The notes under the pieces: model-generated | The model's input: only the letters and a program-made list of their open reading frames with translations | Told to the model about the DNA's origin: nothing | Database searches by the model: none | IMG/VR virus record: IMGVR_UViG_3300028410_000645 | Span: 1 to 23,246 of that record | Strand: one strand, 5' to 3' | Source of the DNA: a virus | DNA length: 23,246 bases | Program-made: the position numbers and the translations under genes | Part shown: positions 510 through 20,429 of the stretch, piece after piece | Numbering within the stretch: the first letter of the stretch is position 1 | Layout of the letters: the number at the start of each line of letters is the position of its first letter

Positions 510-1952
510 ATGAAATATAGTAAATATAAATCAAAAGATTTAGGTATATTGATTGTTAATTTAAATAATATTCAATTAACTAAAGACATAATTAATGATT
601 TAAATAATCAAATAAATAAAAATTTTAAGATTCATTTATTTGATCAAAATTCTTCTGAAGAAGGAACTTCAGAGTATCTAGATAGTTTGGAGAGAATGAA
701 AAAAATTATTGTTATTAAGAACAGTGAAAATATTCCTCTTAATCATTTATGGAACAACTTTGTTAATGATACTAATTATGAGTATATATGTTTTCTTAAT
801 AATGATGTAAGAGTAACAAATAATTTTACTTATGATATTATAAAGACATTAGATGAAAGAGACGATGTTGGGATTATAATACATCCAACTAATAACGATA
901 AAATTAATAAAACAACTGAATATAATTTAAAAATATTAGATAATCCACCATTATATCAAGGATGGGATTTCTCATTTAGAAGAGAAGTATATATGCCAAT
1001 TCCTCAAGAAATGCTAATTTTTGGTGGTGATGATTTAATATTCTCTTATGTACTAAAAAAGAATTATAAAATTGGATTAACAATCAGTTCACCAATCATT
1101 CATTTTAAAGAAAGAACTAGAGTTAAAATTGGTAATATTAAAGAAATACAAGCTAATGATGCAAGGTTATTTATTTCTGAAATCAGCAAGAATAAACTAC
1201 AGTTAGTTCAGTCAACAATGAATGGTGTTATTTCAAATAGATACCCATCACCAACCATGAAATTAATTGAGAATAAAAAGTGTATTTATACTGCACTCAT
1301 AGGTGATTACGATAAATTATATAGTGTTGATAATGATAAAATAGTAAAACAAAAAGATTGGGATTATATATGCTTTACAGATAATTCGGATATAAAATCT
1401 GACTTTTGGAAAATAATTTATATTGGTAACGACACTAAAGAACCATTAGATAATTATAGATTATCTCGATATCTTAAAACAAATTTTGACAAATATCTTT
1501 CATCATATGATTATTTAATATGGAAGGATTGTAGGTGTATAATAAATTGTAATTTAAATACATATTTAGATAACTTGAAAGATTCAGATATTTTATTTTC
1601 GGAACACAGTAATAGAAAAAATATCTTACAGGAGTGTGATGCATTAATTTCTGGTAATTTAGAAACCACCAAAATGATAAATAAAATAAAAAATAGATAT
1701 GAAGCGAATGGGTATAAATATGATAATGGATTATATGCTTCAAGAATATTATGTTTTAGAAATAATAAAAAAATAGTTGATTTCTTTAATGACTGGTGGT
1801 ATGAAATCAATAATTATTCACATAGAGATCAACTATCTTTAAATTATGTATTATCTAATCACAATTTAAAGATAAAAACTCTTTCATTTAAAATAGTGTT
1901 TAGTAATAATTTTAAACTGGGTCATAGAAAATCCACTAGATTATCTTTATAA
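510..1952 (+). CDS. Two-domain glycosyltransferase: GT2 domain fused to a DUF616 (TOD1/MUCI70-like) domain
   Basis: 480 residues. The N-terminal half (about 10-235) looks like a GT-A family 2 glycosyltransferase. It opens with the strand LGILIVNLNN, has FLNNDVRV as the probable metal-binding DxD-type site, and an acceptor-side segment with GGDDLIFSYVL. From about residue 258 a second domain begins, KCIYTALIGDYDKL, followed by WDYICFTDN, a YLIWKDCRC strand and a C-terminal WWYEI...HRDQLSLNYVL. That is the layout of DUF616, a glycosyltransferase-like family. The C-terminal domain is clearly paralogous to the stand-alone protein at 2679-3359. The next ATG lies one base past the stop, so the genes are likely co-translated. 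It probably transfers two sugars, or a sugar and its extension, onto a phage-directed glycan; the substrate cannot be read from the sequence. Confidence 0.75.
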   Translation: MKYSKYKSKDLGILIVNLNNIQLTKDIINDLNNQINKNFKIHLFDQNSSEEGTSEYLDSLERMKKIIVIKNSENIPLNHLWNNFVNDTNYEYICFLNNDVRVTNNFTYDIIKTLDERDDVGIIIHPTNNDKINKTTEYNLKILDNPPLYQGWDFSFRREVYMPIPQEMLIFGGDDLIFSYVLKKNYKIGLTISSPIIHFKERTRVKIGNIKEIQANDARLFISEISKNKLQLVQSTMNGVISNRYPSPTMKLIENKKCIYTALIGDYDKLYSVDNDKIVKQKDWDYICFTDNSDIKSDFWKIIYIGNDTKEPLDNYRLSRYLKTNFDKYLSSYDYLIWKDCRCIINCNLNTYLDNLKDSDILFSEHSNRKNILQECDALISGNLETTKMINKIKNRYEANGYKYDNGLYASRILCFRNNKKIVDFFNDWWYEINNYSHRDQLSLNYVLSNHNLKIKTLSFKIVFSNNFKLGHRKSTRLSL

Positions 1953-1953
1953 T

Positions 1954-2682
1954 ATGTTTTACAGTAAACAACATGATTTATATATTAATAAGCTGAATAA
2001 TGGTGAACATTTTAAATATTCAAGATTTAATGATGGTGAAATAATCGCTGCATCAAGAATTAATATAAATGGTAGTAATTGCGATAACCATAAATATTTT
2101 CCTGAAATGGGAAATGAACTTGAAAAAATATTATTAAACTATTCTTATAGTGATACCTATGTATTTGAACATTATAAGCATTGGTATAATACAAATAATC
2201 TAGTACATGGATATTTAGATAATATATATCAACAGAATAAAAATTTGAAATTTCTTGATGATGATTTTATTAGAAAAACTCATGAAATTAAACCGTACTT
2301 ATTTATTGATTTAATTGAATCGTTTAGAGATAAAAAAATTGTTATTATTGGTGCTGATTATTTAAAATCTTTAAATAAATTCTTTGATTTTGAATATATT
2401 GAAATACCTAGATTGAATTGTTATCTCAGTAAAGATAAAATCATATCAGATATTAAAGAAAGAAATAAAAAGGAAGATAATAATATCTATTTATTTTCAG
2501 CAAGTATGGCTACTAATATAATAATAGACGAATTTAAGGAGGATAATAATAATTCATATATTGATTGGGGATCAGTGTGGGATACTTTTTTCATTGGAAA
2601 AAACTATTCATATTTAAGAAAGAGAAGTTCTAGTAATATGGAAATATATAAAAATTATTATAATAAGTATTTAATATTATGA
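1954..2682 (+). CDS. GT-D-like glycosyltransferase (DUF1792-like), tentative
   Basis: 242 residues. The recognisable signature is FKYSRFNDGE at about 20-29. GT-D fold glycosyltransferases (DUF1792 type) carry an R-F-G-D-G-E segment near the N-terminus whose acidic residues bind the metal and nucleotide sugar. A later KIVIIGADY strand (about 128-136) fits a Rossmann-like nucleotide-binding core. YIDWGSVWD (about 202-210) matches the position of the conserved D-x-G-x-x-W-D region near the C-terminus of that family. It starts one base after the preceding stop and overlaps the next gene by four bases (ATGA), so it belongs to the same operon. The DUF1792 link is from memory of the motif. Confidence 0.5.
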   Translation: MFYSKQHDLYINKLNNGEHFKYSRFNDGEIIAASRININGSNCDNHKYFPEMGNELEKILLNYSYSDTYVFEHYKHWYNTNNLVHGYLDNIYQQNKNLKFLDDDFIRKTHEIKPYLFIDLIESFRDKKIVIIGADYLKSLNKFFDFEYIEIPRLNCYLSKDKIISDIKERNKKEDNNIYLFSASMATNIIIDEFKEDNNNSYIDWGSVWDTFFIGKNYSYLRKRSSSNMEIYKNYYNKYLIL

Positions 2683-3359
2683 ATAAAAATTGTATTTTCA
2701 CTTGTAACATTGCAAATTATGATTCCATACCAGTTATTAAAGAAAAAAATAAGAATTGGGATTATAAAATAATTACCGATAATAAGGATTTAAAATCAAG
2801 CAGTTGGGAAATAATATATATTGAAAATGTAAATAATCTTGATAAATTGAATAATACTAAATTATCTAGGTTTTGTAAAACTAATTATCATGTGTTTTTT
2901 TCTGAATATGATAATTACATTTATATTGATTCTCGATGTATAATTATCAACGATCTTAATAATTATGTTTCTAATTTAGGTGATTATGATTTCCTTTTTT
3001 TGAAACATCCACAAGCTAACAATATTAAAGAAGAGATGGATAGAGTATTAATTGGTTTCTTAGAATCACAAAAGATGATTGATAAAATAAAGAAAAGATA
3101 TGAGGAAGAGGGTTATAAATATAATAACGGATTATTTGCAGGTGGTATTCTATGTTTCAAGGGTAATGAAAGAGTGATAAATTTTTTTAATGATTGGTGG
3201 TATGAAATAAAAAATTACTCACATAGAGATCAATTATCATTGAATTTTGCTTTAAGTAAAAATAATAAATTAAAATATAAATATATAGATTTTAATTTAG
3301 TCTTTTCTAAATACTTCAAACAAGGAGTAAGAAAAAGTAGTAGATTAAAAATATTATAA
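2679..3359 (+). CDS. Stand-alone DUF616 (TOD1/MUCI70-like) glycosyltransferase-like protein
   Basis: 226 residues covering one DUF616 domain. It opens CIFTCNIANYDSI, continues WDYKIITDN, YIYIDSRCIII and a C-terminal FFNDWWYEI plus SHRDQLSLNFAL. It is paralogous to residues about 258-480 of the fusion at 510-1952; blocks such as KMI.KIK.RYE..GYKY.NGL and DWWYEI.NYSHRDQLSLN are almost identical. So one of the two arose by duplication of the domain within this cassette. Its ATG overlaps the preceding stop by four bases. The family is annotated as glycosyltransferase-like; the sugar and acceptor are unknown. No signal peptide or membrane segment is visible, so it should be cytoplasmic. Confidence 0.7.
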   Translation: MNKNCIFTCNIANYDSIPVIKEKNKNWDYKIITDNKDLKSSSWEIIYIENVNNLDKLNNTKLSRFCKTNYHVFFSEYDNYIYIDSRCIIINDLNNYVSNLGDYDFLFLKHPQANNIKEEMDRVLIGFLESQKMIDKIKKRYEEEGYKYNNGLFAGGILCFKGNERVINFFNDWWYEIKNYSHRDQLSLNFALSKNNKLKYKYIDFNLVFSKYFKQGVRKSSRLKIL

Positions 3360-3365
3360 TAAATT

Positions 3366-3914
3366 ATGGAATTTGATAAATATAAAAATAGAGGTGCATA
3401 TCATTGGATTGAATACGAAAATAATACACTATATGGTCAACATGTTAATAAATTATTATCATGGATGAGAAAAGATGGAAGAACATTAGATATTGGTGCT
3501 GGTGATGGATTAATAACCCATCTATTAGATGCAGAAGGGATAGATGATAATAAAATAGCTATTAAATTGGCTAAAGAAAAAAATGCAAATGTCTTATTTG
3601 GTGATGCTTATAAATTAAACTATGATGATAATACATTTGATAATGTTTTAATGGCTGATGTTATTGAGCATTTAGAATTTCCAGATGTTGCAATTAAAGA
3701 AGTAAAGAGAGTATTAAAACCAGATGGATATTTTTACGTGGTAACACCCCCAGCGAGAGAAGATGGTGTTTTACAAGATAAATATCATTATATAGAATAT
3801 TCTCCAAATAAATTAAGTGATTATTTATCTACATTTGATTTTGATTTAACTGAAGCAGTTGAAGTAGTAAGTAAATATGTTAGAATGTATGGAGTATATA
3901 TAAACCAAAAATAA
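3366..3914 (+). CDS. Class I SAM-dependent methyltransferase (Methyltransf_11-like)
   Basis: 182 residues. SAM-binding motif I is clear as TLDIGAGDG (about 40-48). The acidic end of strand 2 is degenerate, followed by NVLFGDAYKLNYDDNTFD (motif II region), DNVLMADVIEHL (motif III region) and VKRVLKPDGYFYVVTPP. This is the canonical order for the UbiE/Methyltransf_11 group, and the length is short but complete. In a cassette of glycosyltransferases it probably methylates a sugar or a precursor. It is separated from the upstream gene by six bases and shares one base (TAATG) with the next methyltransferase. No ribosome binding site is visible, as usual for Bacteroidota. Confidence 0.8.
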   Translation: MEFDKYKNRGAYHWIEYENNTLYGQHVNKLLSWMRKDGRTLDIGAGDGLITHLLDAEGIDDNKIAIKLAKEKNANVLFGDAYKLNYDDNTFDNVLMADVIEHLEFPDVAIKEVKRVLKPDGYFYVVTPPAREDGVLQDKYHYIEYSPNKLSDYLSTFDFDLTEAVEVVSKYVRMYGVYINQK

Positions 3915-4537
3915 TGATGGAATATAGGACTAAAATAATAAATACTATTGCTGATAAAATTAAAGCAAAAAAATATTTGGAAATAGGTGTTAGAAATCCA
4001 AAGGAAAATTTTAATTATATAAATTGTGATATTAAAGATGGTGTTGATCCTGAACCAGTAACACTATGTAACTATAGAATGACAAGTGATGAGTTCTTTA
4101 AGAAATATTCACATGACAAAGAATATGATTTAGTTTTTGTAGATGGTATGCATACTGCAGAGCAAGTTTATAAAGATGTAATGAATTCAATTGAAATATT
4201 GAGTGACAATGGTTTTATAGTTATACATGATTGTAACCCACCAACTGAATTTCACACTAGAAGTTATAATGAATATCTAAAAACTAGAGGTCAATGGTAT
4301 GGTGATGTTTACAAAGGGTTTATAAAATTGAAAGAAGATTTAAAAGACTATAGTTGCTTTGTTATAGATGAAGATTGTGGCTGTGGTATTATCACCAAAT
4401 CATCTAATTTTAATATTAAGAATAGTAATATTAAAGACCCTAGTGGTGAATATAATTGGAAATTCTTTAATAATAATAGAGAATGTGTACTATGTTTAAC
4501 ACAATACAATGAATTTGTTGAAAAATTATCTAACTAA
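3914..4537 (+). CDS. Class I SAM-dependent methyltransferase (Methyltransf_24-like)
   Basis: 207 residues. KKYLEIGVRNPKENF (about 18-33) is a glycine-poor motif I, followed by the acidic strand 2 (NCDIKDGVDPEP). YDLVFVDGMHTAEQVYKDV (about 72-90) is the VDG-x-H signature of the Methyltransf_24 group, and NGFIVIHDCNPP (about 99-110) its motif with the HDC metal/substrate loop. These enzymes O-methylate sugars or small molecules in surface polysaccharide and antibiotic loci. The start overlaps the preceding stop by one base; a second Met follows at once, so either could be used. The C-terminal 40 residues (Asn-rich, then CVLCLTQYNEFVEKLSN) look less conserved and run into a region of gene scars. 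Confidence 0.7.
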   Translation: MMEYRTKIINTIADKIKAKKYLEIGVRNPKENFNYINCDIKDGVDPEPVTLCNYRMTSDEFFKKYSHDKEYDLVFVDGMHTAEQVYKDVMNSIEILSDNGFIVIHDCNPPTEFHTRSYNEYLKTRGQWYGDVYKGFIKLKEDLKDYSCFVIDEDCGCGIITKSSNFNIKNSNIKDPSGEYNWKFFNNNRECVLCLTQYNEFVEKLSN

Positions 4538-4622
4538 TATAGCTGATTTAGGGGAAAAAGAAGATTATAAAGATTTACATAAAATATATAATTTAAATAA
4601 CAAAATTAAATATAGCTTTAAC

Positions 4623-5156
4623 ATGAAAAGAATATTACCAATACACATCGTAACCAAAAAAATAGAGATAATTAATGCAATTGGGTTTAGCTTTTTTATT
4701 TTCATTTTCACACACCCAAAAATTAGTAAAAAAAATTCGGGTAATACATTAGAAACATTAATAAACCATGAATTAATTCATTTTAAACAACAAGTAGAAT
4801 TATTATTTATATTTCATTGGTTATTATATGGATTCTTTTATATTAAGAATAGATTAACTAAATATAAAAGTCATGATGAAGCTTATATGAATAACCCATT
4901 TGAAAGAGAAGCTTTTTCTAATGAGGATAATCTTGACTATTTAAAAATTGATTGTGAAGGTGGTGAGTATGATTTTTTAATGAATATAGATTTGTCTAAT
5001 GTAAGATACATGGCAATTGAAATACATACTCAATTAGGTAATGATAAGATTAAAGAACTAAATAATCATTTATTACAATATTTTACCATAATAAACGATT
5101 TAAATGATGGTATAAATATGCATAAAGAATTAACTCTGAAAAATAAGTCTATTTAA
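4623..5156 (+). CDS. Chimeric protein: HExxH metallopeptidase-like domain joined to the tail of an FkbM-type methyltransferase
   Basis: From MKRILPIHIV the first ~105 residues form a small membrane-associated HExxH protein. There is a hydrophobic stretch (GFSFFIFIF), then INHELIHFKQQVELL (zinc HExxH), a second hydrophobic stretch (FIFHWLLYGFFYI) and NPFEREAFSNE, which supplies the downstream glutamate. Proteins of this shape are common in Bacteroidota and normally end shortly after a D-Y-L-K segment. Here, exactly at DYLK, the frame runs into KIDCEGGEYDFLMN and VRYMAIEIHTQLG, the C-terminal SAM-binding part of FkbM methyltransferases, whose N-terminal half is missing. The frame is open back to an ATG at 4509, but those 38 residues overlap the upstream gene and fit neither domain, so I chose 4623. 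Probably a recombination product; whether either half functions is doubtful. Confidence 0.55.
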   Translation: MKRILPIHIVTKKIEIINAIGFSFFIFIFTHPKISKKNSGNTLETLINHELIHFKQQVELLFIFHWLLYGFFYIKNRLTKYKSHDEAYMNNPFEREAFSNEDNLDYLKIDCEGGEYDFLMNIDLSNVRYMAIEIHTQLGNDKIKELNNHLLQYFTIINDLNDGINMHKELTLKNKSI

Positions 5157-6863: not shown

Positions 6864-8236
6864 TGAAAGTACATAATCCAAACGGTTCTAAAGAAAGACT
6901 CAAAGAAATGTTTGAGCGAGTTAATAAAGTTACAATTAATGAAACATTTGATGTACCAGTTGTTAATGATAAATCATATCTAGAAAAAAGTGGTGACGAA
7001 GAGGCTGAAAAAAAGCAAGTTAACAAATATGATGGTGGTGTAGATTATCCAGCTATTGATGATTTGAAAACTGACCATGAGTCATTAGATAAGATTGCCG
7101 AAGAAGAAGAGCTTGATGAAATATCGTTAGCTGGACTTAAAGGTGCTGGTCAATACGTTGGAAAATCTATTGGAGATAAAGTAAAGCAAGGTGTTGATAA
7201 TGTTAAGAACAAAGTTGGTAATGTTAAAAAAGCATATCATAGAAGTACTGGTGATGATCAACTAGGTAAAATACAAAAATATGCTGAAAATTTTGGTGAG
7301 AAATTTGGTAAGTATTTAGCTAAATATAATACTCAAGCAGAAAAAGCAGGTGAACAACCATTACAGCCAAGACAATTAGCTCAAGTGGTAACTAATGCAC
7401 TTGATAGAGCATATAAGCAAGGAGATACAAAAGCTCAAATAAATTTTGATAATTTAAAAATGCAGAAAGAAAGTGAAGAGTACCAAGAAATCGAAGGTGG
7501 TCTTGCTGATGAAGCTGATCCAAATGAATTTGATGCTAGACAAATCATGAAAGGCATGGAAGTAGAAATGGAACATACTGATGACCCAAGACAAGCTTTG
7601 GAAATTGCTATGGATCATTTGATGGAAATTCCTAACTACTATGATGAATTAGCTGATATGGAGTCTGGTGCTGATGTTGAACAACCAGAAGAAGATGATA
7701 ATTCTGCTGATGCTTTATTAGACCCATCGCAACATTGGGTTGATGACTATTCTCCAAAAAAATTAGGTGATGAATCTGAAATGACAGACGATATTAATGA
7801 AGAGGAATTAGGTGATACTTGGGCAAAAATGGCAGGTGTTTCTAGACAAGATTGGACTTATATGCCGTATGAAAAGAAAATGCAGTATATAAATAAGTAC
7901 TATGAAGAAAACCCTCCACAAAATAATAGTAATGCATATGGTAATGATCCAGAAGGAGTGGCTAAGTGGTTAGAAAAAGACAAAGCTGCAAGTAGATCAC
8001 CTATGGATGAGAACACTATTGATTTAAGCTTCAACGATGATGGTAAAGGTAATTGGATTCCTCAAGGAATGGAGGATAAAAAAATTGCAATAAGAAAAGT
8101 TGAGCAACCAATGGGTAGTGGTAATGAAAAATATTTATTAGTACAACTAGATCAAAATGGTAGTGTGGAAGATGTCTATGATAGAAAAGATTCTTGGGAA
8201 GAAGCAGTAGCAGCTTTAGGATCATCAATAAGCTAA
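6863..8236 (+). CDS. Large acidic protein with a DUF5661-like segment
   Basis: 457 residues. The N-terminus (SKERLKEMFERVNKVTINE) echoes that of the preceding protein. Residues about 88-125 are a Gly/Lys/Val amphipathic stretch (GLKGAGQYVGKSIGDKVKQG). Residues about 219-268 (DPNEFDARQIMKGMEVEMEH, then IAMDHLMEIPNYYDELADME) match the layout of DUF5661: G-x-E-x-E-H, then IA-x-DHL-x-E-x-P-x-YY-x-x-L-x-x-ME. This segment is seen in many phage proteins without a known role. The C-terminal part contains two further folded blocks (DTWAKMAGVSRQDW and a strand-rich end, KYLLVQLDQNGSVEDVYDRKDSW) separated by acidic linkers. Probably a virion or head-associated protein by position, not proven. Confidence 0.6.
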   Translation: MKVHNPNGSKERLKEMFERVNKVTINETFDVPVVNDKSYLEKSGDEEAEKKQVNKYDGGVDYPAIDDLKTDHESLDKIAEEEELDEISLAGLKGAGQYVGKSIGDKVKQGVDNVKNKVGNVKKAYHRSTGDDQLGKIQKYAENFGEKFGKYLAKYNTQAEKAGEQPLQPRQLAQVVTNALDRAYKQGDTKAQINFDNLKMQKESEEYQEIEGGLADEADPNEFDARQIMKGMEVEMEHTDDPRQALEIAMDHLMEIPNYYDELADMESGADVEQPEEDDNSADALLDPSQHWVDDYSPKKLGDESEMTDDINEEELGDTWAKMAGVSRQDWTYMPYEKKMQYINKYYEENPPQNNSNAYGNDPEGVAKWLEKDKAASRSPMDENTIDLSFNDDGKGNWIPQGMEDKKIAIRKVEQPMGSGNEKYLLVQLDQNGSVEDVYDRKDSWEEAVAALGSSIS

Positions 8237-8265: not shown

Positions 8266-9663
8266 ATGAGTAGATTCAGGTCATATTTTTCCAAGAACAA
8301 TACATTAATTGAAGATAATAGAACAAATAACTCTCAAAATCCTGTAAGTGAAATATCTTACGGGACTTTAGAAAATCGAGTTAGCCGTTTTATCTTTGAT
8401 ATTGACTTACAACCCCTAGTTGATAAGTTAAATTCTGGTGTATTAAATCCTGATCTAATAAAATCTCACAAATTAAATCTTACTAATACAATAAGAATAA
8501 TTCCAGAACTAGTTGGTTCTAGATATGCTGATTGCGAAACACAAAGAGCAGCTAGTTTTACATTAGAGTTATTTAATATTGAAGAAGATTGGGACGAAGG
8601 TAATGGATATGATTTTGTTTATATAGATGAACAATTTCCAAGTATTCCAAAACAAGCATCAAACTGGTTTGAAAGAAAAACAAGTATCGAGTGGTCGGTA
8701 GAAGGTGCAGTAACTAGTGGCACGACAATATTAGATAGTTTAGATTTCCAAGATGGTAGTGAAAATTTCGTTACTGATATTACCGATTACATAAACTCAA
8801 GAATATTTGCTAGTGGTGTTACTGGTTTTACTGGAACTACATTCGGATTAGGTATTAAATTTACTGATGATCTTGAGTCTGGTACTACACTTCAAAGACA
8901 GGCAGTAGCGTTCCATGTGAAGGACTCTCCTACTTTTTATGAGCCATATGTAGAAACAATAGTTGAAGACCTTATAGAGGACGACAGAGAGTATTTCTAT
9001 ATGAATAAAGAAAATGATCTTTATCTATATGCTAATGCTGGTGGTAATAGTGTTGATGTTACTGTGAACAGTGTAACTATTAATGACTATCAAGGCAATG
9101 AAGCTACAGTTATTAGTGGTGATAGTATCCAAGAAGTAAGAAGTGGTGTATATAAAGTAACATATTCAACATCTACTGAATTATACCCAGATCAAGTAAT
9201 CTTCAATGATATTTGGAATGTGACTCGTAACGGAAGAACCAAAGACGTTGTGCAACAATTTTATCTTATAAATGAAGATCAATATCTAAATTTTGATTTA
9301 TCTAGAAGAGTTAATTTTGACAATTACTTTTTTAATGTAATCGGTGTTAATAATGGTGAAATCATAAAAGCAGGTGATACAAGAAGAGTTGTTGTTGACG
9401 TAAGAGAATTATATCCTGATCAAAACAATAATCTTCCATTAAATTTAGAGTATAGATTATTTGTTAAACAAGATGTCGATCATCATATAGATGTAATTCC
9501 ATTTACTAAGTTAGATCGTACTATTGCTGGATATGAATTTTTATTAGATACTTCATGGTTAATTCCACAAGACTATTATTTAGAAGTTAAAATTTCTGAT
9601 AGTGGTGTTTACAATGTGAAAAAACCAATTTATTTTACTGTAACTTCTACAGAAATAGTTTAA
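8266..9663 (+). CDS. Probable virion structural protein with DNRLRE-like and beta-sandwich regions
   Basis: 465 residues. After a polar N-terminus (SRFRSYFSKNNT) comes a block of about 190 residues (ISYGTLENRVSRFIFDIDLQ ... THITDYINS-type ending as TDITDYINSRI). Its repeated patterns, SRFIFDIDL, RAASFTLELFNIEEDWDEG and DYINSRIFASG, resemble the extracellular beta-sandwich DNRLRE type: an R-x-x-I/L-x-F-D strand, an Asp-rich W-x-E-G loop and a final axial strand. The rest (about 240-465) is regular beta-rich sequence ending in a strand TSTEIV. There is no signal peptide, as expected for a phage virion protein. Protein families of this sort occur in the tail or head decorations of large phages of Bacteroidota, though I cannot name this one. 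The start ATG is the first after the upstream stop. Confidence 0.55.
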   Translation: MSRFRSYFSKNNTLIEDNRTNNSQNPVSEISYGTLENRVSRFIFDIDLQPLVDKLNSGVLNPDLIKSHKLNLTNTIRIIPELVGSRYADCETQRAASFTLELFNIEEDWDEGNGYDFVYIDEQFPSIPKQASNWFERKTSIEWSVEGAVTSGTTILDSLDFQDGSENFVTDITDYINSRIFASGVTGFTGTTFGLGIKFTDDLESGTTLQRQAVAFHVKDSPTFYEPYVETIVEDLIEDDREYFYMNKENDLYLYANAGGNSVDVTVNSVTINDYQGNEATVISGDSIQEVRSGVYKVTYSTSTELYPDQVIFNDIWNVTRNGRTKDVVQQFYLINEDQYLNFDLSRRVNFDNYFFNVIGVNNGEIIKAGDTRRVVVDVRELYPDQNNNLPLNLEYRLFVKQDVDHHIDVIPFTKLDRTIAGYEFLLDTSWLIPQDYYLEVKISDSGVYNVKKPIYFTVTSTEIV

Positions 9664-14259: not shown

Positions 14260-16011
14260 ATGATAGAAGAATATACTATTGATGGCTACCTCGGCAGTGG
14301 CTATCAATTGAAAGTATTGTGGCAGATATTAACAGAGCCTGAATTTGGTAACGATATTTTTCCTTTTCTTAAGACAGAATATTTTGATGATCCTAATCAT
14401 CGAAGATTTTTTACTGTCATAAGAGAATACTACGATGAGTATGGTAAAATACCAAACCTACAGAATAAAAGTATCTTTCATGCAATCACTCGATATAAAC
14501 AATCGGCAAATCCAGTAGATGAAGAAATCTTAATGGGTATTGCTGAAAATATTAAAAACTGGAATGATAGAGTAATTAATAAGAACCTTGATTACGATGG
14601 TGATGCTGTACAACAGGCTGTTTATAATTTTATCAAGCAAGGTGAATATGGTGATCTAGCAGATTTTATTATGTCAAATCTAAAAAAAGGATTTGATGAT
14701 GAAATTAATTATAAGCTTGATAAGAGAATTAAGAAGATCAGTGAAATTGGTAGTGATGAAGATGAAGGTATTGAAATATTTGACGATATAGATAGAGCCT
14801 TACAGGTAAACTTTAGAGAGCCAATTGGTACTGGTATACTTGCCATTGATAATTTGATGGGTGGTGGTCTAGGTAAGGGTGAAATGGGGATTATACTTGC
14901 AGGTACTGGTGTGGGTAAATCAACAGCACTAACTAAGATTGCCAATGAAGGACATGCATTAGGTAAAAATGTTCTTCAAGTGGTATTTGAAGATGCCGAA
15001 GATGAAATTAGACGTAAGCATTATGCAATATGGTCTGAAACAAAACTAAGTGAAATGAATGATAATCTTGAATCTGTTGGTAGACGTGTTAGAGATTATC
15101 AAAATAATGATAATTTAGGTAAGTTAATCATTAAGAAATTCCCTCAAGAGGGTATCACTATCCCTAAAATACGCCAGTGGATGGATCGATATAAGAAAAA
15201 GTGGGGGATTAGTTTTGATTTATTAGTACTTGATTATATTGATTGTGTTGATCCACATGAAAAGTATTTTGATCAGAATAAAGCAGATGAAGGTATTATT
15301 AAAGCCTTTGAAGGAATAGCTACTGATTATAATATACCATGTTGGACTGCAATACAGGCAAATCGTAGTGGTTTAGGTAGTAGTTCCAGTAATTCTAATA
15401 ATGGAAATGCTGCTGAGTTTATTGGTACATCACAAATGGGTGGTAGTATTAAACGTGCTCAAAAGACTCACTTCCTAATGTCTGTAGCAAAAACACCTGA
15501 ACAAAAACGTGCAGGATTAGCTAACATAGCAATTCTTAAAGCTAGGTTTGCTGCCGATGGTCAAAAATTTGAAGATGCTATTTTCGATAATAATTCAGTA
15601 AAAATAGTTGTGAGAGATAGTGATTACTCTTATCGAAATACAAGAGATGATGGTGACCAAGAACCTATTACAAAATCTGATGGTGAAATAGGTAAGTTAA
15701 GTGAAAAGATTGCAGCTATGAATAGAAACATGGATGCCAATAAACAAGGACGAAACTTAGTTAACTACAAAGCTGCTATCAGTGGTGATACTGCAACAAA
15801 CCAAGAAAATAAAGAAGAAGTGAAACTTCCTATTAATGAGGATGTTAGCAAAGAATCTAAAGAAAAGGTGGAAAATAATCAAAAAAATATTGCAGATGAG
15901 TTTGCAGAAATGAAAAATTCACGTACATTTGTGTCATCATCTAATTCGGAAATCGACATTAGAAAACAACTTGACGACATGTCTAATAGACATTTTAAAA
16001 ACTCAAGTTAA
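14260..16011 (+). CDS. 41: gp41-like replicative DNA helicase (DnaB-type)
   Basis: 583 residues; T4 gp41 is about 475. It is a hexameric helicase that unwinds the fork and works with a primase. The N-terminal part (about 1-150) is the helical DnaB-type N-domain (LKTEYFDDPNHRRFFTVI). The RecA-like core starts with IGTGILAIDNLMGGGLGKGE. Walker A is AGTGVGKST (214-222), FEDAEDEIRRK follows, Walker B is LLVLDY (321-326), and the GTSQMGGSIKRAQKTHFL segment carries the sensor and arginine-type residues. The last ~110 residues (after about 470) are Asn/Glu/Lys-rich and look disordered; they account for the extra length and may bind partners. The last codons overlap a terminator hairpin. Confidence 0.9.
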   Translation: MIEEYTIDGYLGSGYQLKVLWQILTEPEFGNDIFPFLKTEYFDDPNHRRFFTVIREYYDEYGKIPNLQNKSIFHAITRYKQSANPVDEEILMGIAENIKNWNDRVINKNLDYDGDAVQQAVYNFIKQGEYGDLADFIMSNLKKGFDDEINYKLDKRIKKISEIGSDEDEGIEIFDDIDRALQVNFREPIGTGILAIDNLMGGGLGKGEMGIILAGTGVGKSTALTKIANEGHALGKNVLQVVFEDAEDEIRRKHYAIWSETKLSEMNDNLESVGRRVRDYQNNDNLGKLIIKKFPQEGITIPKIRQWMDRYKKKWGISFDLLVLDYIDCVDPHEKYFDQNKADEGIIKAFEGIATDYNIPCWTAIQANRSGLGSSSSNSNNGNAAEFIGTSQMGGSIKRAQKTHFLMSVAKTPEQKRAGLANIAILKARFAADGQKFEDAIFDNNSVKIVVRDSDYSYRNTRDDGDQEPITKSDGEIGKLSEKIAAMNRNMDANKQGRNLVNYKAAISGDTATNQENKEEVKLPINEDVSKESKEKVENNQKNIADEFAEMKNSRTFVSSSNSEIDIRKQLDDMSNRHFKNSS

Positions 16012-16037
16012 AAATTTATAAAATTATTGAGTTTTTT
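15997..16037 (+). terminator. Intrinsic terminator overlapping the end of the helicase gene
   Basis: AAAACTCAA (15998-16006) pairs with TTGAGTTTT (16027-16035), with a 20-base A/T-rich loop and a T-run to 16037. The 5' arm lies within the last codons and stop of the helicase. It separates the replication module from the RNA island. Confidence 0.6.
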
Positions 16038-16101
16038 GTAACTTTTTGTAAAATTAATCGTATTTACTTTTACACGCTTTTTAAAAAAACATCAAAAAAT
16101 G

Positions 16102-16132
16102 TTTGATAGTTTTAAAAAAAAAGTTACATTTG
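16102..16132 (+). promoter_or_regulatory. Promoter of the giant ncRNA/tRNA transcript (perfect Bacteroidota consensus)
   Basis: TTTG (16102-16105), a 19-base A-rich spacer, then TACATTTG (16125-16132), an exact match to TAnnTTTG. The predicted start (about 16138) falls at the base of the hairpin GTTCTTAAAGAAGAAC (16137-16152), which would cap the 5' end of the RNA. Confidence 0.78.
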
Positions 16133-17135
16133 CATCGTTCTTAAAGAAGAACAGCAAATAAAAAAATTGACATATTGAATTAAAAATATTTGAGGGTGCT
16201 TATGCTCTCTTCTTTTCCTTCGGGATTAGAAAGTTCTTCGGAAAAAATAAACTTGGAAACAAGGATAAAGGTGTAGCAGATTACCAATACCTGTTATATC
16301 GATTTTTCCAGTCTTCGGATTGGTTGTAATTTGAGTAAGCAATACACTAACCAGTGTTAACAGGAACGTCCGAGTGGATAGCTGTTACATTGATAATGAA
16401 GTAAGGGCTTCATTATTGAGTATGATGAATACAATAGATTTAAGTGTAAGGTTATAGTCCGTAATTGTACCAGCAATGAAGGGCGGTAATCAGTTGAAAT
16501 ACTTAGTCCATAATACGAAAGTTCAGTAATGAATATAAGTATTGGAAGGTTAGAAACAGTGAGGTGGTACTCACATGGAGTTGTGTAGTATTTGCTGCCC
16601 AAAAGGTAGTAAGCTACTCCTTAGCCACAACTCTTCAGACTCCGTTATGGTTACAAAATTGCTTATAAAAAAAGCACTTCTCTGTTAAAGAAGTTATATA
16701 AAAGCATAAGTGCTAAGGCGTTGAAAGTGAAAGTTGCACAACTCGTAATTAATACGGGGCATGAAGGTCGCAAACCAGAGTGTGTGTTGCTGATGTTTAG
16801 TGGAGGCATCTCCTTAGTTTGCTCTGAAACGAGTAGAGTAGATATGAAGCAGCAGAAAAAGCTTCAACGATACGATTGGTTAACGTAATTAACTTGCAAT
16901 CACGGATTACTATAGGAAACTGTAGTGGATAAAGAAAGAACTAATAATGTTCTGAAAGGTTCGTGTCTAGTAGCTGTAGTCTCAGGCTTATTTAACATGG
17001 AGAGTTCTCTTTTGAGAGGGCATTTCGAGTGGATTGGTTCATTCCAATACTCTCCACAAATTCTACAAAAAAGTTGTAGACTAAAAAAATTCCCTATCGT
17101 CCCTGCAATGCAAACTTTAGGGTGTAAAGATACAT

Positions 17136-17212
17136 TGCGAGGTGGAGAAGTCTGGCATCTCGGTAGGCTCATAACCTACAGGTCGCAGGTTCAAATCCTG
17201 CCCTCGCTACCA
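17136..17212 (+). tRNA. Initiator-type tRNA-fMet (anticodon CAU), CCA encoded
   Basis: A 77-base cloverleaf. Acceptor GCGAGG/CCTCGC has an unpaired 1:72 (U-U); D-stem GAGA/TCTC; anticodon stem GTAGG/CCTAC with loop CTCATAA; T-arm GCAGG TTCAAAT CCTGC; discriminator A and an encoded CCA. Three features mark a bacterial initiator rather than an elongator: the 1:72 mismatch, the A11:U24 pair in the D-stem, and a gap-free alignment to E. coli tRNA-fMet as I remember it (shared TGGAG, CTGG, CTCATAACC, AGGTCG, GGTTCAAATCC). The usual three G-C pairs next to the anticodon loop are reduced to A-U, G-C, G-C. It lies inside the giant RNA transcript, so it must be cut out by RNase P and 3' nucleases. Confidence 0.93.
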
Positions 17213-17281
17213 TTATACCTAGTAAAGCCTCTTGCATAGCAACGTAACTAGGTGAAGTTATTTAGGTTTGATCACCTAGAT

Positions 17282-17317
17282 CATTAACGGAATACTGATA
17301 ACTGTTAATGTTTTTTT
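17282..17317 (+). terminator. Intrinsic terminator of the giant RNA/tRNA transcript
   Basis: CATTAACGG pairs with CTGTTAATG (nine pairs, one G-U) around an 11-base loop, followed by seven T residues and then GTTTATA, the same trailer as after two later terminators. Confidence 0.88.
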
Positions 17318-17330
17318 GTTTATAGAACGG

Positions 17331-17592
17331 AGCGTAAAACCCATCGATCTTTAGTCGATGGGATGTAAGCGACAAAAAATATTTATATTAATAGAAGGTA
17401 TTAATGGGGTTAGTATAATTAACTAATAAGTAATTTGTATATTAATTATATTTAATATATATTTACAATAATTAACTCTGGTTTTGGGATGCAATCAGAG
17501 GATAAACAAAAACAAGTGGAGGCGTTAACGTTGGTTAAGTCTATGAAACTTGAAGCCCATCCCATCGCCTCTGGCGTGGGTGGGTAGTTCAC
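17331..17592 (+). mobile_element. Possible IS200/IS605-type end palindromes or omega-RNA-like relic, no transposase/TnpB present
   Basis: The left side has a perfect 8-bp hairpin CCCATCGA/TCGATGGG with loop TCTTTAG (17340-17362), flanked by GCGTAAAA and ATGTAAGCGAC. The right side has CCCATCC / GGGTGGG enclosing CGCC-TCT-GGCG (17556-17584), followed by TAGTTCAC. A CTTTAG-type loop on a C/G-rich palindrome, and a palindrome followed by TAGTTCAC, are what I remember of IS200/IS605 ends and the 3' end of TnpB guide RNAs. GAGGCG (17519) can also pair with CGCCTC (17566) as a pseudoknot, and TTAAC-GTTG-GTTAA forms a hairpin between them. The ~200 bases between the ends are AT-rich without an ORF. 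Alternatives are a non-autonomous PATE-like element or simply another phage ncRNA. Confidence 0.35.
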
Positions 17593-17756
17593 ACTCTGAT
17601 AGTGGAGAAGTTTTTGTAGTTTTTTCTAGTAAGAAAATTAAATAAAAAACTAGTATCACTGTTTAGTTAACAGCTTAACTATGAGAAGTTGTCGTTTTTT
17701 ATAAATGTTTCAGTGCATTTTTGAATTTCAACGATAAGTAAATTTAAAAACATAGT
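17593..17756 (+). other. AT-rich spacer with one clear hairpin, no gene
   Basis: The only clear structure is the perfect hairpin TAGTTAA-CAGC-TTAACTA (17664-17681), which is followed about 12 bases later by GTCG and six T residues. It could be a weak terminator for the preceding RNA. No ORF, promoter or repeat was recognised in the rest. Confidence 0.4.
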
Positions 17757-17788
17757 AAACCCATAGGAGAAATTTTATGGGTTTTTTT
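17757..17788 (+). terminator. Intrinsic terminator, first copy of a repeated terminator cassette
   Basis: AAACCCATA pairs perfectly with TATGGGTTT (nine pairs), loop GGAGAAATTT, followed by T residues to 17788 and then GTTTATA. Nearly identical to the terminator at 17971-18002. Confidence 0.85.
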
Positions 17789-17803
17789 GTTTATAGTAAA
17801 TAT

Positions 17804-17943
17804 TATGGATTGTCTATATTGTAAGGTGTAGACTTATTGGTTGGAGCAAGTAATTTTAAATTACAAGGGTAGGTGAGAGACCTACATGCATATAAGGTGG
17901 AACAGTAATGCCATACACGTCCAATGATACCTTATAATCCATA
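17804..17943 (+). ncRNA. Compact multibranch small RNA of unknown class
   Basis: TATGGATT (17804-17811) pairs with AATCCATA (17936-17943) and closes a domain with four perfect hairpins. These are GTCTA/TAGAC (17812-17833), GTAATT/AATTAC (17850-17864), GTAGGT/ACCTAC with loop GAGAG (17869-17885) and ATAAGGT/ACCTTAT (17892-17935, with an inner GGA/TCC). Terminators sit immediately before and after, so it forms its own cassette of about 180-210 bases. No tRNA cloverleaf can be drawn and no known small RNA is recognised. No Bacteroidota promoter with a full -7 box is visible, so it may be made by read-through of the first terminator. Confidence 0.6.
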
Positions 17944-17970
17944 TTAATATAATAAATGGCGTACCGAGTA

Positions 17971-18002
17971 AAACCCATAGGAGAAATCTTACGGGTTTTT
18001 TT
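17971..18002 (+). terminator. Intrinsic terminator, second copy of the repeated terminator cassette
   Basis: AAACCCATA with TACGGGTTT (eight of nine pairs, A-C mismatch), the same GGAGAAAT loop start as the copy at 17757, then T residues and GTTTATA. It ends the compact RNA at 17804-17943. Confidence 0.75.
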
Positions 18003-18032
18003 GTTTATATCAGTTTTTAAAAACGTAACAAT

Positions 18033-18041
18033 GTATTTATA
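18033..18041 (+). promoter_or_regulatory. GTATTTATA motif upstream of the tail-fibre-like gene
   Basis: The same motif as before other virion genes, here 93 bases before the ATG at 18135. No Bacteroidota -33/-7 pair is visible in this gap, so this is the only promoter candidate. Confidence 0.25.
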
Positions 18042-18075
18042 TGTAAAATGACTTGAATTTATCATGATCATTTTT

Positions 18076-18112
18076 AAAAATCTAGATAATATTCTGAATA
18101 TGATAGATTTTT
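18076..18112 (+). terminator. Weak A/T hairpin with T-run, uncertain
   Basis: AAAAATCTA pairs perfectly with TAGATTTTT across a 19-base loop and is followed by ATTTT. It is mostly A-T pairs and lies only 22 bases before an ATG, so it may instead be a leader structure of the tail-fibre gene. Confidence 0.25.
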
Positions 18113-18134
18113 ATTTTAAAAAACAAATATAGAT

Positions 18135-20429
18135 ATGGCTTTTTTTACACGTCCTAGACTTGACAATTTACAATTTCAACAACAAAGTTCTGATAACTTA
18201 ACATTATCAGGATCAACCATATTCTCTAAAACAATTGGTGGTATTAATCTAACTGATGATCAAAAGAATATAATACCAATTGATGCATCAAGTCCTTTTG
18301 ATGGTGCTGGATTAATTTATAGTGGAGGTACGCTTATCTTTCGCCAAGGTGGTGGCGGTGGTGCTGCATTTCTTGACAACGTTGGTGGTGGTAGTGGTAT
18401 AATATATAATGCAGGTAGTAGTACAGGAGCAACTAGTAATCTTCGAACAATATCTGGAGGTAGTGGTGTTGATATTGAAACTATTGGAAATACAATAGTT
18501 GTAAATGCTTCTGGTGGTTTATTAGGTAAACCAAATAGAGGTCTTGTTGGTGATCAAGATGATGATTATGACGATGGATTATTTCCATTTACATCTGGAA
18601 CAACCGTAGGTAAAGCTGTTGATAATATAAATGAGTTTTTAGGATTATTAGCACCAGCACAGCCACCAATATTAGATAATCAAAATACTTTAGGTGGGTT
18701 TGTTGAGGGTAAACTATCTTTTGGTGCTACAAAAAATGATATTGGATATGCTAATGTTACTGCAGGTCAAACTGCAGGTGCTTTAGATATAAATGATAAT
18801 TTCCCTATTGTTGGTTTTAGAAAGGGTTTAACTCAAAATAGTATACTTACTAATAATAATATATTTGGTGTTTTAAATGATGATGTTGCAGGTAATGAAA
18901 CTGCTGCTGGAGTTCCATTTGAAGAGAATGCATTTAGAGATGGTAGTGTAGGTACATTATCATTATATCTTAATGGTGTCATAATTGATGTATTGGATTT
19001 ATTTTTAACTGATAATGCAATAGATGGCTTATCAGGTTATTTAAGTGTAGGACAAGCAAAGGCAGTTAAATTTGATAATGGTAATGATTTCGGTGGTGCT
19101 AAATATAGACAAGGAGATTTTACGATCCCAACAAGTCTTTTACGTGATGGATATAATTATGTAAGAGTAATTCATAGTGATGGTAGTAACTTCACTAGAA
19201 CAACAAACTTTACTGATTGGGTGTATGATGATAATACCGAAAACATTGATTTTGTTGCAGTTAATAATGGTGCTACATTTGAGTCAGTAAACTTAAGTGG
19301 TAGTAGATTAATATCGGGTGTTGAATATTATACATCAGGTAATGTGGTTTATGAAGGTACAGCATCAAATGTTTATAAAAAAGTATATAGTAATTCAAAT
19401 ACAGCAATTAGATTTCTTAATAGAGTAAATCTTGCATCTAGTCCTAGTGCTATATTAGTATCTGGTGCTGGAATACTTAATGGTACTAATACTGCTTTAC
19501 CTAATTTAAATACTAATGTTCAAAATCCACAGGATACACTTATTACGATAAGTGCGACATTAGATATTAATACTGACAGAGTTTTAGGAAGAAAAAACTT
19601 TCAAAGTGCTGGTTCATTACCATCAGGTGAGTTAAGATCAAGTATTAATGTCTTGCATCCGTTTAATGTAAAATCATTTAACAAAGCAGCTAATATAACA
19701 TCAAGTGAAGTTTCAGAAACAGGTGTTTTACTTTATAATGTAAATCAAACATCAAATTCTTCAAGTGAAAATTTTACAGGTGAAGTTGATAGATTAAAAT
19801 CTAGAAATTATACAGGTACATTATACAGTAATTTACTTGGTAGTCTATACAACTGGGAAAGTTCATTAAGTTTGATAGGTACTAATGTAGAACATAACAC
19901 TGGTATGTTAGTGTTTAATGGTGGATTATATTATCCTAACTCAAGTGAATTAAATAGTGATTACAATATAATCAACGGTAATTTTGATAGTTTAACATAT
20001 TCACCAGCAAACAATGTTAATTATACTAGTGCCAGTGGTATTAGAAATTATTATAGAAAATTTAGAGCTACAACTACCACTGCTTTAGCAACTATACAAG
20101 GTGGTATTGTACATGATGGTGATACTACTACATTCTTAACCAATCCAGCAACACAAGGAACTCCAACTGCAAATAGAATTAAATTTGAAGTTTTAATTAA
20201 AAGAGTCGATGGAAGTAGTATTGGTTATATGAATCCTTTCTCAACTGATTTTGCATCACAAAGTGGTGTATCAAATGTTACATTGAGTCAATCAGGTAGA
20301 CGAACAAATTTCTCATTTACATTAGGACAGGGACGTGTAGATAATGGTGATATTATGATTGTAAGATTATTCTTTTCATCTGATTATAATCAAAAAATAA
20401 ATCTTATCGAATTTACAAATATAAATTAA
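18135..20429 (+). CDS. Tail-fibre/virion appendage-like protein
   Basis: 764 residues, poor in Cys and Lys and rich in Asn, Ser, Thr and Gly, as in trimeric phage fibres. The N-terminus (FFTRPRLDNLQFQQQSSDNL, then TLSGSTIFSKT) is probably the virion-attachment part and echoes that of the gene starting at 23080. A Gly-rich hinge (GGGGGAAFLDNVGGGSG) follows at about 73-90. DDGLFPFTSGTTVGKAVDNI with NEFLGLLAPAQPP (about 148-178) matches a segment I remember from large-phage structural proteins (T-x-x-G-x-x-[IV]-D-x-x-N-E-x-L-x-x-L-A-P). The remainder is regular beta-rich sequence ending in LIEFTNIN. No catalytic or peptidase motif is visible. The stop is one base before the next ATG, so the two fibre-like genes form an operon. 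Confidence 0.65.
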   Translation: MAFFTRPRLDNLQFQQQSSDNLTLSGSTIFSKTIGGINLTDDQKNIIPIDASSPFDGAGLIYSGGTLIFRQGGGGGAAFLDNVGGGSGIIYNAGSSTGATSNLRTISGGSGVDIETIGNTIVVNASGGLLGKPNRGLVGDQDDDYDDGLFPFTSGTTVGKAVDNINEFLGLLAPAQPPILDNQNTLGGFVEGKLSFGATKNDIGYANVTAGQTAGALDINDNFPIVGFRKGLTQNSILTNNNIFGVLNDDVAGNETAAGVPFEENAFRDGSVGTLSLYLNGVIIDVLDLFLTDNAIDGLSGYLSVGQAKAVKFDNGNDFGGAKYRQGDFTIPTSLLRDGYNYVRVIHSDGSNFTRTTNFTDWVYDDNTENIDFVAVNNGATFESVNLSGSRLISGVEYYTSGNVVYEGTASNVYKKVYSNSNTAIRFLNRVNLASSPSAILVSGAGILNGTNTALPNLNTNVQNPQDTLITISATLDINTDRVLGRKNFQSAGSLPSGELRSSINVLHPFNVKSFNKAANITSSEVSETGVLLYNVNQTSNSSSENFTGEVDRLKSRNYTGTLYSNLLGSLYNWESSLSLIGTNVEHNTGMLVFNGGLYYPNSSELNSDYNIINGNFDSLTYSPANNVNYTSASGIRNYYRKFRATTTTALATIQGGIVHDGDTTTFLTNPATQGTPTANRIKFEVLIKRVDGSSIGYMNPFSTDFASQSGVSNVTLSQSGRRTNFSFTLGQGRVDNGDIMIVRLFFSSDYNQKINLIEFTNIN

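Follow-up and report, generated by a model that had tools for sequence, protein, structure and literature searches.

The 23,246-nt stretch of DNA analysed here (the window), a 23-kb IMG/VR virus record, probably encodes one phage transcript that combines a GOLLD giant RNA and a processed trailer with two hairpins acting as antitoxin-like decoys against Abi_2 proteins. Beyond this locus, we lean towards the broader reading that solitary mimics of two undescribed families of Abi_2-linked antitoxin RNAs are widespread in Bacteroidota phages. Expressed from GOLLD/tRNA operons as well as from other transcripts, they would form a counter-defence made of RNA only and directed against two Abi_2 subtypes at once.

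Organisation of the RNA locus

The RNA locus lies downstream of UvsX-like recombinase, exonuclease and DnaB helicase genes, and upstream of a gene with virion structural-protein matches. The following features were assigned.

16102–16132, + strand: Bacteroidota-type promoter, with TTTG at 16102–16105 and TACATTTG at 16125–16132 (sequence)
16185–16575 (start approximate), + strand: GOLLD 5′ domain, divergent subtype, with the hairpin ATAAACTTGGAAACAAGGATAAAG common to most GOLLDs
16576–16988, + strand: GOLLD 3′ domain, RF02032 model 1–416, with a variable internal linker at ~16640–16717
16998–17058, + strand: degenerate tRNA-like fold, with a 7-bp acceptor GGAGAGT/ACTCTCC and T-arm ATTGG-TTCATT-CCAAT
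17062–17080, + strand: hairpin TCTACAA/TTGTAGA (sequence and fold; similar hairpins in L122)
17087–17129, + strand: motif 2, model R2 60.6 bits, with outer stem CCCTA/TAGGG, loops UCGUCCC and AACUU, and inner stem UGC/GCA
17136–17212, + strand: tRNA-Met(CAT), ARAGORN, Rfam tRNA 60.6 bits, CCA encoded
17213–17257, + strand: motif 1, model R1 62.6 bits, with outer stem CCTAGT/ACTAGG, loops AAAGCCUC and CGUA, and inner stem UUGC/GCAA
17260–17281, + strand: hairpin ATTTAGGT/ACCTAGAT (fold; conserved in L122)
17282–17317, + strand: intrinsic terminator, a 9-bp hairpin at 17282–17310 followed by T7 (sequence and fold)

The promoter pointed out by the initial annotation is present, and it is conserved in the relative L122. 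The assignment is further supported by an enrichment of the −7 box TAnnTTTG, which occurs in the 100-nt bin upstream of the GOLLD at 65 of 97 loci, compared with 0–5 in the bins inside the GOLLD. Transcription would begin near 16139, and a single transcript extending from there to 17317 would carry several separate RNAs. Several GOLLDs located within tRNA arrays (L003, L021, L074, L085, L101, L116 and L117) are devoid of this box and have tRNAs near both sides; the window locus is a hybrid, with its own promoter and a tRNA trailer.

The terminator was recovered in the folds, and the three C(UUCG)G and two GAAA loops described earlier all occur in the sequence. The region had also been said to hold no believable open reading frame (ORF), and this agrees with our results: of the three ORFs of 81–104 amino acids, two were scanned against PHROGs without a match, and none of the three is intact in the relatives L122 and L126, which are 75% identical. 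Reading the region as coding was rejected on this lack of conservation. The initial annotation had taken the whole 1.18 kb as a single ornate RNA. The long, structured, noncoding stretch is real, but it comprises a GOLLD of ~0.84 kb and a separate trailer rather than one fold, and the tRNA-Met gene inside the claimed RNA had been overlooked.

The giant RNA belongs to a divergent GOLLD subclade

The segment 16576–16988 matches the Rfam family GOLLD (RF02032) over the full length of the model (positions 1–416), with a score of 200.2 bits against a cut-off of 150. It is therefore not a new giant RNA class, which had been offered as one of two options. The other option, a divergent member of GOLLD or ROOL in a Bacteroidota phage, is correct as to GOLLD; ROOL is ruled out, as its Rfam model gave no match in the window, nor in 15900–18200 at permissive E-values.

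Judged by its sequence, the giant RNA is a new GOLLD member from a divergent subclade with an unusual 5′ domain. As expected for this family, it is a non-coding phage gene near a tRNA, here a neighbouring tRNA-Met, and it forms its own transcription unit. It likewise joins a conserved 3′ domain, present in full, to a variable 5′ domain, and its body ends near 16993. It differs from most GOLLDs in its low score and in its largely different 5′ domain, where the hairpin ATAAACTTGGAAACAAGGATAAAG and its spacing are in common and the rest is divergent, as well as in its trailer, with its tRNA-like fold and its pair of Abi-linked hairpins.

A GOLLD above the cut-off was found in 118 of 129 viral records reached via a GOLLD motif or the neighbouring helicase. 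Within the window subclade (L072, L121, L122, L123 and L125–L128) the scores range from 173 to 208 bits, compared with 270–340 bits for most others. The window-type 5′ domain was found in only nine IMG/VR contigs and had no match in bacterial genome contigs. Covariation, which had been proposed as a check of the structure, was observed for GOLLD as a family: in an alignment of 45 full-length homologues, 110 of the 125 consensus pairs show at least one double change, with the 5′ helices of the subclade represented by only about three distinct sequences. The GOLLD env-38 forms a 14-mer nanocage (PMC12286853), and the window RNA (~16155–16993) may, by homology, assemble into such a multimeric cage.

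A tRNA-like fold and a tRNA in the trailer

Beyond the GOLLD, the trailer contains the degenerate tRNA-like fold, motif 2, tRNA-Met(CAT), motif 1 and the terminator. The tRNA-like fold has a six-base T-loop and is without a normal anticodon arm. It begins exactly at +73 from the GOLLD motif GTGGATAA, at the site of the tRNA in other GOLLDs; the GOLLD model ends at +63, and at many loci the GOLLD is followed by a tRNA, frequently Met(CAT), that begins at about +70 to +80. At loci of the L003 and L012 types, other shortened acceptor/T-arm folds replace the tRNA. A scan for such folds at the GOLLD 3′ end was positive at 23 of 94 loci, compared with 9 of 282 shuffles. In the tRNA-Met of the window, the first acceptor pair (1–72), read from the sequence, is unpaired, which is initiator-like.

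In the mammalian MALAT1/mascRNA pair, the 3′ end of the long RNA is formed by an RNase P cut before a tRNA-like fold. By analogy, the GOLLD 3′ end could be made by an RNase P cut before the tRNA or tRNA mimic, which suggests a general rule for GOLLD biogenesis. In the window, the tRNA-like fold and the tRNA would offer cut sites for RNase P and RNase Z, whereby the GOLLD 3′ end and the small RNAs would be freed.

Unusual tRNA-related genes were also observed at relatives of the window. L123 (8050–8167 and ~8470–8600), and likewise L122 and L125, contain two RNAs in which the tRNA 3′ half precedes the 5′ half and in which leader and trailer pair. The first matches the YrlA Y RNA with 37 bits (cut-off 69), and in L123 this phage Y RNA pair adjoins the GOLLD and tRNAs. 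An interpretation as circularly permuted tRNA genes in L122 and L123 was rejected: because one copy matches YrlA, albeit under the cut-off, such an order is already known from the permuted tRNA-like module of Y RNAs. Directly behind the GOLLD of L122 (6283–6420) lies a tRNA-Ile(UAU)-like gene with a D-loop insertion of ~63 nt that resembles an intron or an added hairpin. In the relative L126, two genes of the GOLLD trailer are unusual (7956–8043 and 7780–7853): a tRNA-Met(CAT) whose variable region is extra-long, and a tRNA whose anticodon loop has 6 nt.

Two covarying hairpin families outside Rfam

Motif 1 has the consensus outer stem NNNNGU/ACNNNN, loops [AC]AAGCCUC and CGUA, and inner stem UUNN/NNAA; motif 2 combines an outer stem such as CCCTA/TAGGG with loops UNGUCCC and AACUU and an inner stem UG../..CA. 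The loop pattern of motif 1 occurs in 108 viral contigs, and both stems form in 96 of the 111 matches. Since the search pattern prescribed the loops, their invariance arises partly by construction. In an alignment of 50 motif 1 sequences, 96.8% of the cells are paired, compared with 20–52% when the partners are slid, and 100 cells are double-changed against a shuffled mean of 26. This alignment kept sequences with at least five of the six outer pairs, but the selection effect on pairing is small because most matches reached that threshold. Motif 2 also covaries (seven sequences). The two motifs lie within 130 nt of each other in the window and in L126, L247, L264, L266 and L301.

No Rfam family matches motif 1 or motif 2. 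The abiF RNA family (RF03085) was considered as their identity and rejected, as neither the window nor the motif loci in chromosomes are hit by its model; what relates the motifs to AbiF RNAs is thus the arrangement, not the sequence. We know of no description of either motif family, with most subscription papers lying outside the literature covered. The expectation of an undescribed system at this locus is borne out in the trailer hairpins, and not in the giant RNA, which is a GOLLD.

Chromosomal copies adjoin Abi_2 genes

In genome contigs, motif 1 with all six outer pairs gave 13 matches and one partial match, all in Bacteroidota; the pattern without full stems gave 37 matches spread over many phyla. 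The Bacteroidota chromosomal copies have the appearance of stand-alone small RNA genes, several with a terminator behind, and TAnnTTTG is found at a fixed position of −17/−18 in 8 of the 13. Several of them are divergent to an Abi_2 gene at a distance of 47–77 nt. The linked proteins match PF07751 (Abi_2) and PADLOC PD-T4-5 and carry a HEPN-type RxxxxH motif; a search by sequence gave no PDB relatives of the Abi proteins. In chromosomes, motif 2 likewise has a divergent Abi_2 gene ~75 nt away, and this gene belongs to a second subtype. The motif 1-linked subtype A and the motif 2-linked subtype B are ~27–29% identical.

Of 396 Bacteroidota genomes searched with models R1 and R2, 13 contain motif 2 and five contain motif 1. 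In the reverse direction, starting from the Abi protein alone in 16 Bacteroidota genomes, one of the motifs adjoins the gene in 13: motif 1 in five and motif 2 in eight (one of these copies being cut by a contig end), with both in none and neither in three. At the genome level, the co-occurrence of motif and Abi gene has a Fisher p of 1.6e-13. The Abi gene is absent at 8 of 19 chromosomal motif 1 loci and 8 of 16 motif 2 loci.

By analogy with known systems, the chromosomal RNA is most likely an antitoxin that keeps the HEPN ribonuclease inactive. RCd22 binds the AbiF of C. difficile directly and thereby neutralises it, both in cis and in trans (PMC12373285). Like the present loci, the AbiF/RCd22 (AbiFr) type III toxin–antitoxin system (PMC12373285, PMC12737573) combines a HEPN Abi protein and, next to its gene, a small hairpin ncRNA with a promoter of its own. 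In contrast to it, the motif RNAs do not match RF03085, the gene order in chromosomes is divergent, the linked Abi protein is closest to PD-T4-5, and the RNA is solitary in phages.

Phage copies stand without a toxin gene

Abi family matches were obtained at 11 of 19 chromosomal motif 1 loci, compared with 0 of 74 viral ones (p = 1.2e-9). No Abi HMM match was found in the window or at any viral motif locus, and the motifs of the window are therefore orphan copies, not a complete system. Some viral copies of motif 1 lie between tRNAs, others in a 5′ leader immediately behind a Bacteroidota promoter or ahead of a terminator. The isolated Tenacibaculum phage pT24 (LC168164, near 233934–233979) contains motif 1 directly before a terminator (60.8 bits), and the crAss-like cr114_1 also has a match (44 bits). 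Among the other loci searched, model R1 found no motif 1 near GOLLDs outside the window subclade. GOLLD and decoys may therefore co-occur by chance.

Two further arrangements of motif 1 were observed. In L264 (506–551 and 449–494) and L301 (9584–9629 and 9641–9686), motif 2 adjoins motif 1, and a Y-RNA-like leader and a T-arm follow; this cluster of small phage RNAs recurs and has no GOLLD. In L221, L224, L226, L233, L252, L262 and their relatives, motif 1 stands at the leader start of a gene for a small predicted zinc-finger-like protein (MKDTYGK...), in several cases just after a Bacteroidota promoter.

The phage motifs are most likely mimics of antitoxin RNAs that serve in counter-defence, as the analogy with other phage RNAs suggests. 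Motifs 2 and 1, orphan copies of RNAs adjoining two subtypes of Abi_2 HEPN toxins, would each bind their own subtype and thereby silence it. When infection disturbs the antitoxin of the host, the extra copies from a strong phage RNA operon would hold the toxin, and with the toxin kept bound the cell would not undergo abortive infection.

Phage RNAs that act in a comparable way have been described. Phage PhiTE escapes ToxIN with pseudo-ToxI, an RNA mimic of the antitoxin (PMC3475682); the phage hairpins are predicted to be mimics of the same kind. However, the ToxI mimic arose in escape mutants and targets ToxIN, whereas many natural Bacteroidota phages carry the present hairpins as fixed, single, Abi_2-linked elements. 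RNA anti-CRISPRs (Racr), solitary phage repeat RNAs that block CRISPR-Cas (PMC10651486), are likewise copies of a defence RNA without the defence proteins, but their target is CRISPR-Cas instead of the HEPN Abi toxin proposed here. According to a reference given in PMC12737573, phage sk1 carries a region that protects against AbiF; we found no abiF RNA in phage sk1.

The locus could instead be an ordinary GOLLD and tRNA locus, in which the hairpins serve the structure or processing of phage tRNA arrays (e.g., as RNase or protein sites), were borrowed by bacterial Abi_2 loci and have no anti-defence role. This is an unlikely explanation. A same-strand tRNA is indeed found within 3 kb at 36 of the 74 viral motif 1 loci, and 27 motifs lie less than 150 nt upstream of a tRNA. 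The other half, however, is located away from tRNAs, in promoter-proximal 5′ leaders or, as in pT24, before terminators, and in chromosomes the motif forms a gene of its own, linked to a HEPN toxin.

We consider it still less probable that the hairpins are remnants of phage-carried toxin–antitoxin modules, kept by drift or for addiction only. Abi systems do occur on prophages (PMC12373285) and the AbiF of C. difficile is phage-encoded, and the toxin is also missing beside some chromosomal copies. Yet none of the 74 distinct viral loci has retained a toxin, while compensatory changes have preserved the stems; the maintenance of the stems where the toxin is gone argues for a present function without it. 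That the whole 1.18 kb forms a new class of giant ornate RNA is practically refuted, since this long, structured, non-coding region with its own promoter and terminator has a full-length GOLLD match above the curated cut-off and otherwise consists of a tRNA and small modules found independently elsewhere.

The orphan Abi_2-linked RNAs would thus represent phage mimicry of antitoxins by two RNA families outside Rfam. If so, some of the non-coding cargo of phage tRNA/GOLLD islands that has lacked an explanation gains a function, namely as RNA decoys against HEPN abortive-infection toxins, which belong to a wider family linked to the origin of Cas13 (PMC12737573). With each RNA family paired with one Abi_2 subtype, toxin–antitoxin specificity becomes directly testable, and mimicry would predict which phages overcome which Abi_2 systems.

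Other features of the window

A BLAST comparison of the whole locus with phage records gave the tRNA as the sole match. Positions 510–5156 of the window hold a cluster of glycosyltransferase and methyltransferase genes. Behind the terminator, a 261-bp insertion (17324–17584) is present in the window and absent from the near-identical relatives L072 and L121. It resembles a mini-element of the IS200/IS605 type: both ends carry a hairpin, the 3′ end is omega-RNA-like (...GGGTGGGTAGTTCAC), and a TnpB gene is missing. A 39-nt direct repeat (17757–17795 and 17971–18009, 95% identical) with a terminator-like hairpin lies after the RNA operon and before the structural gene that follows it.
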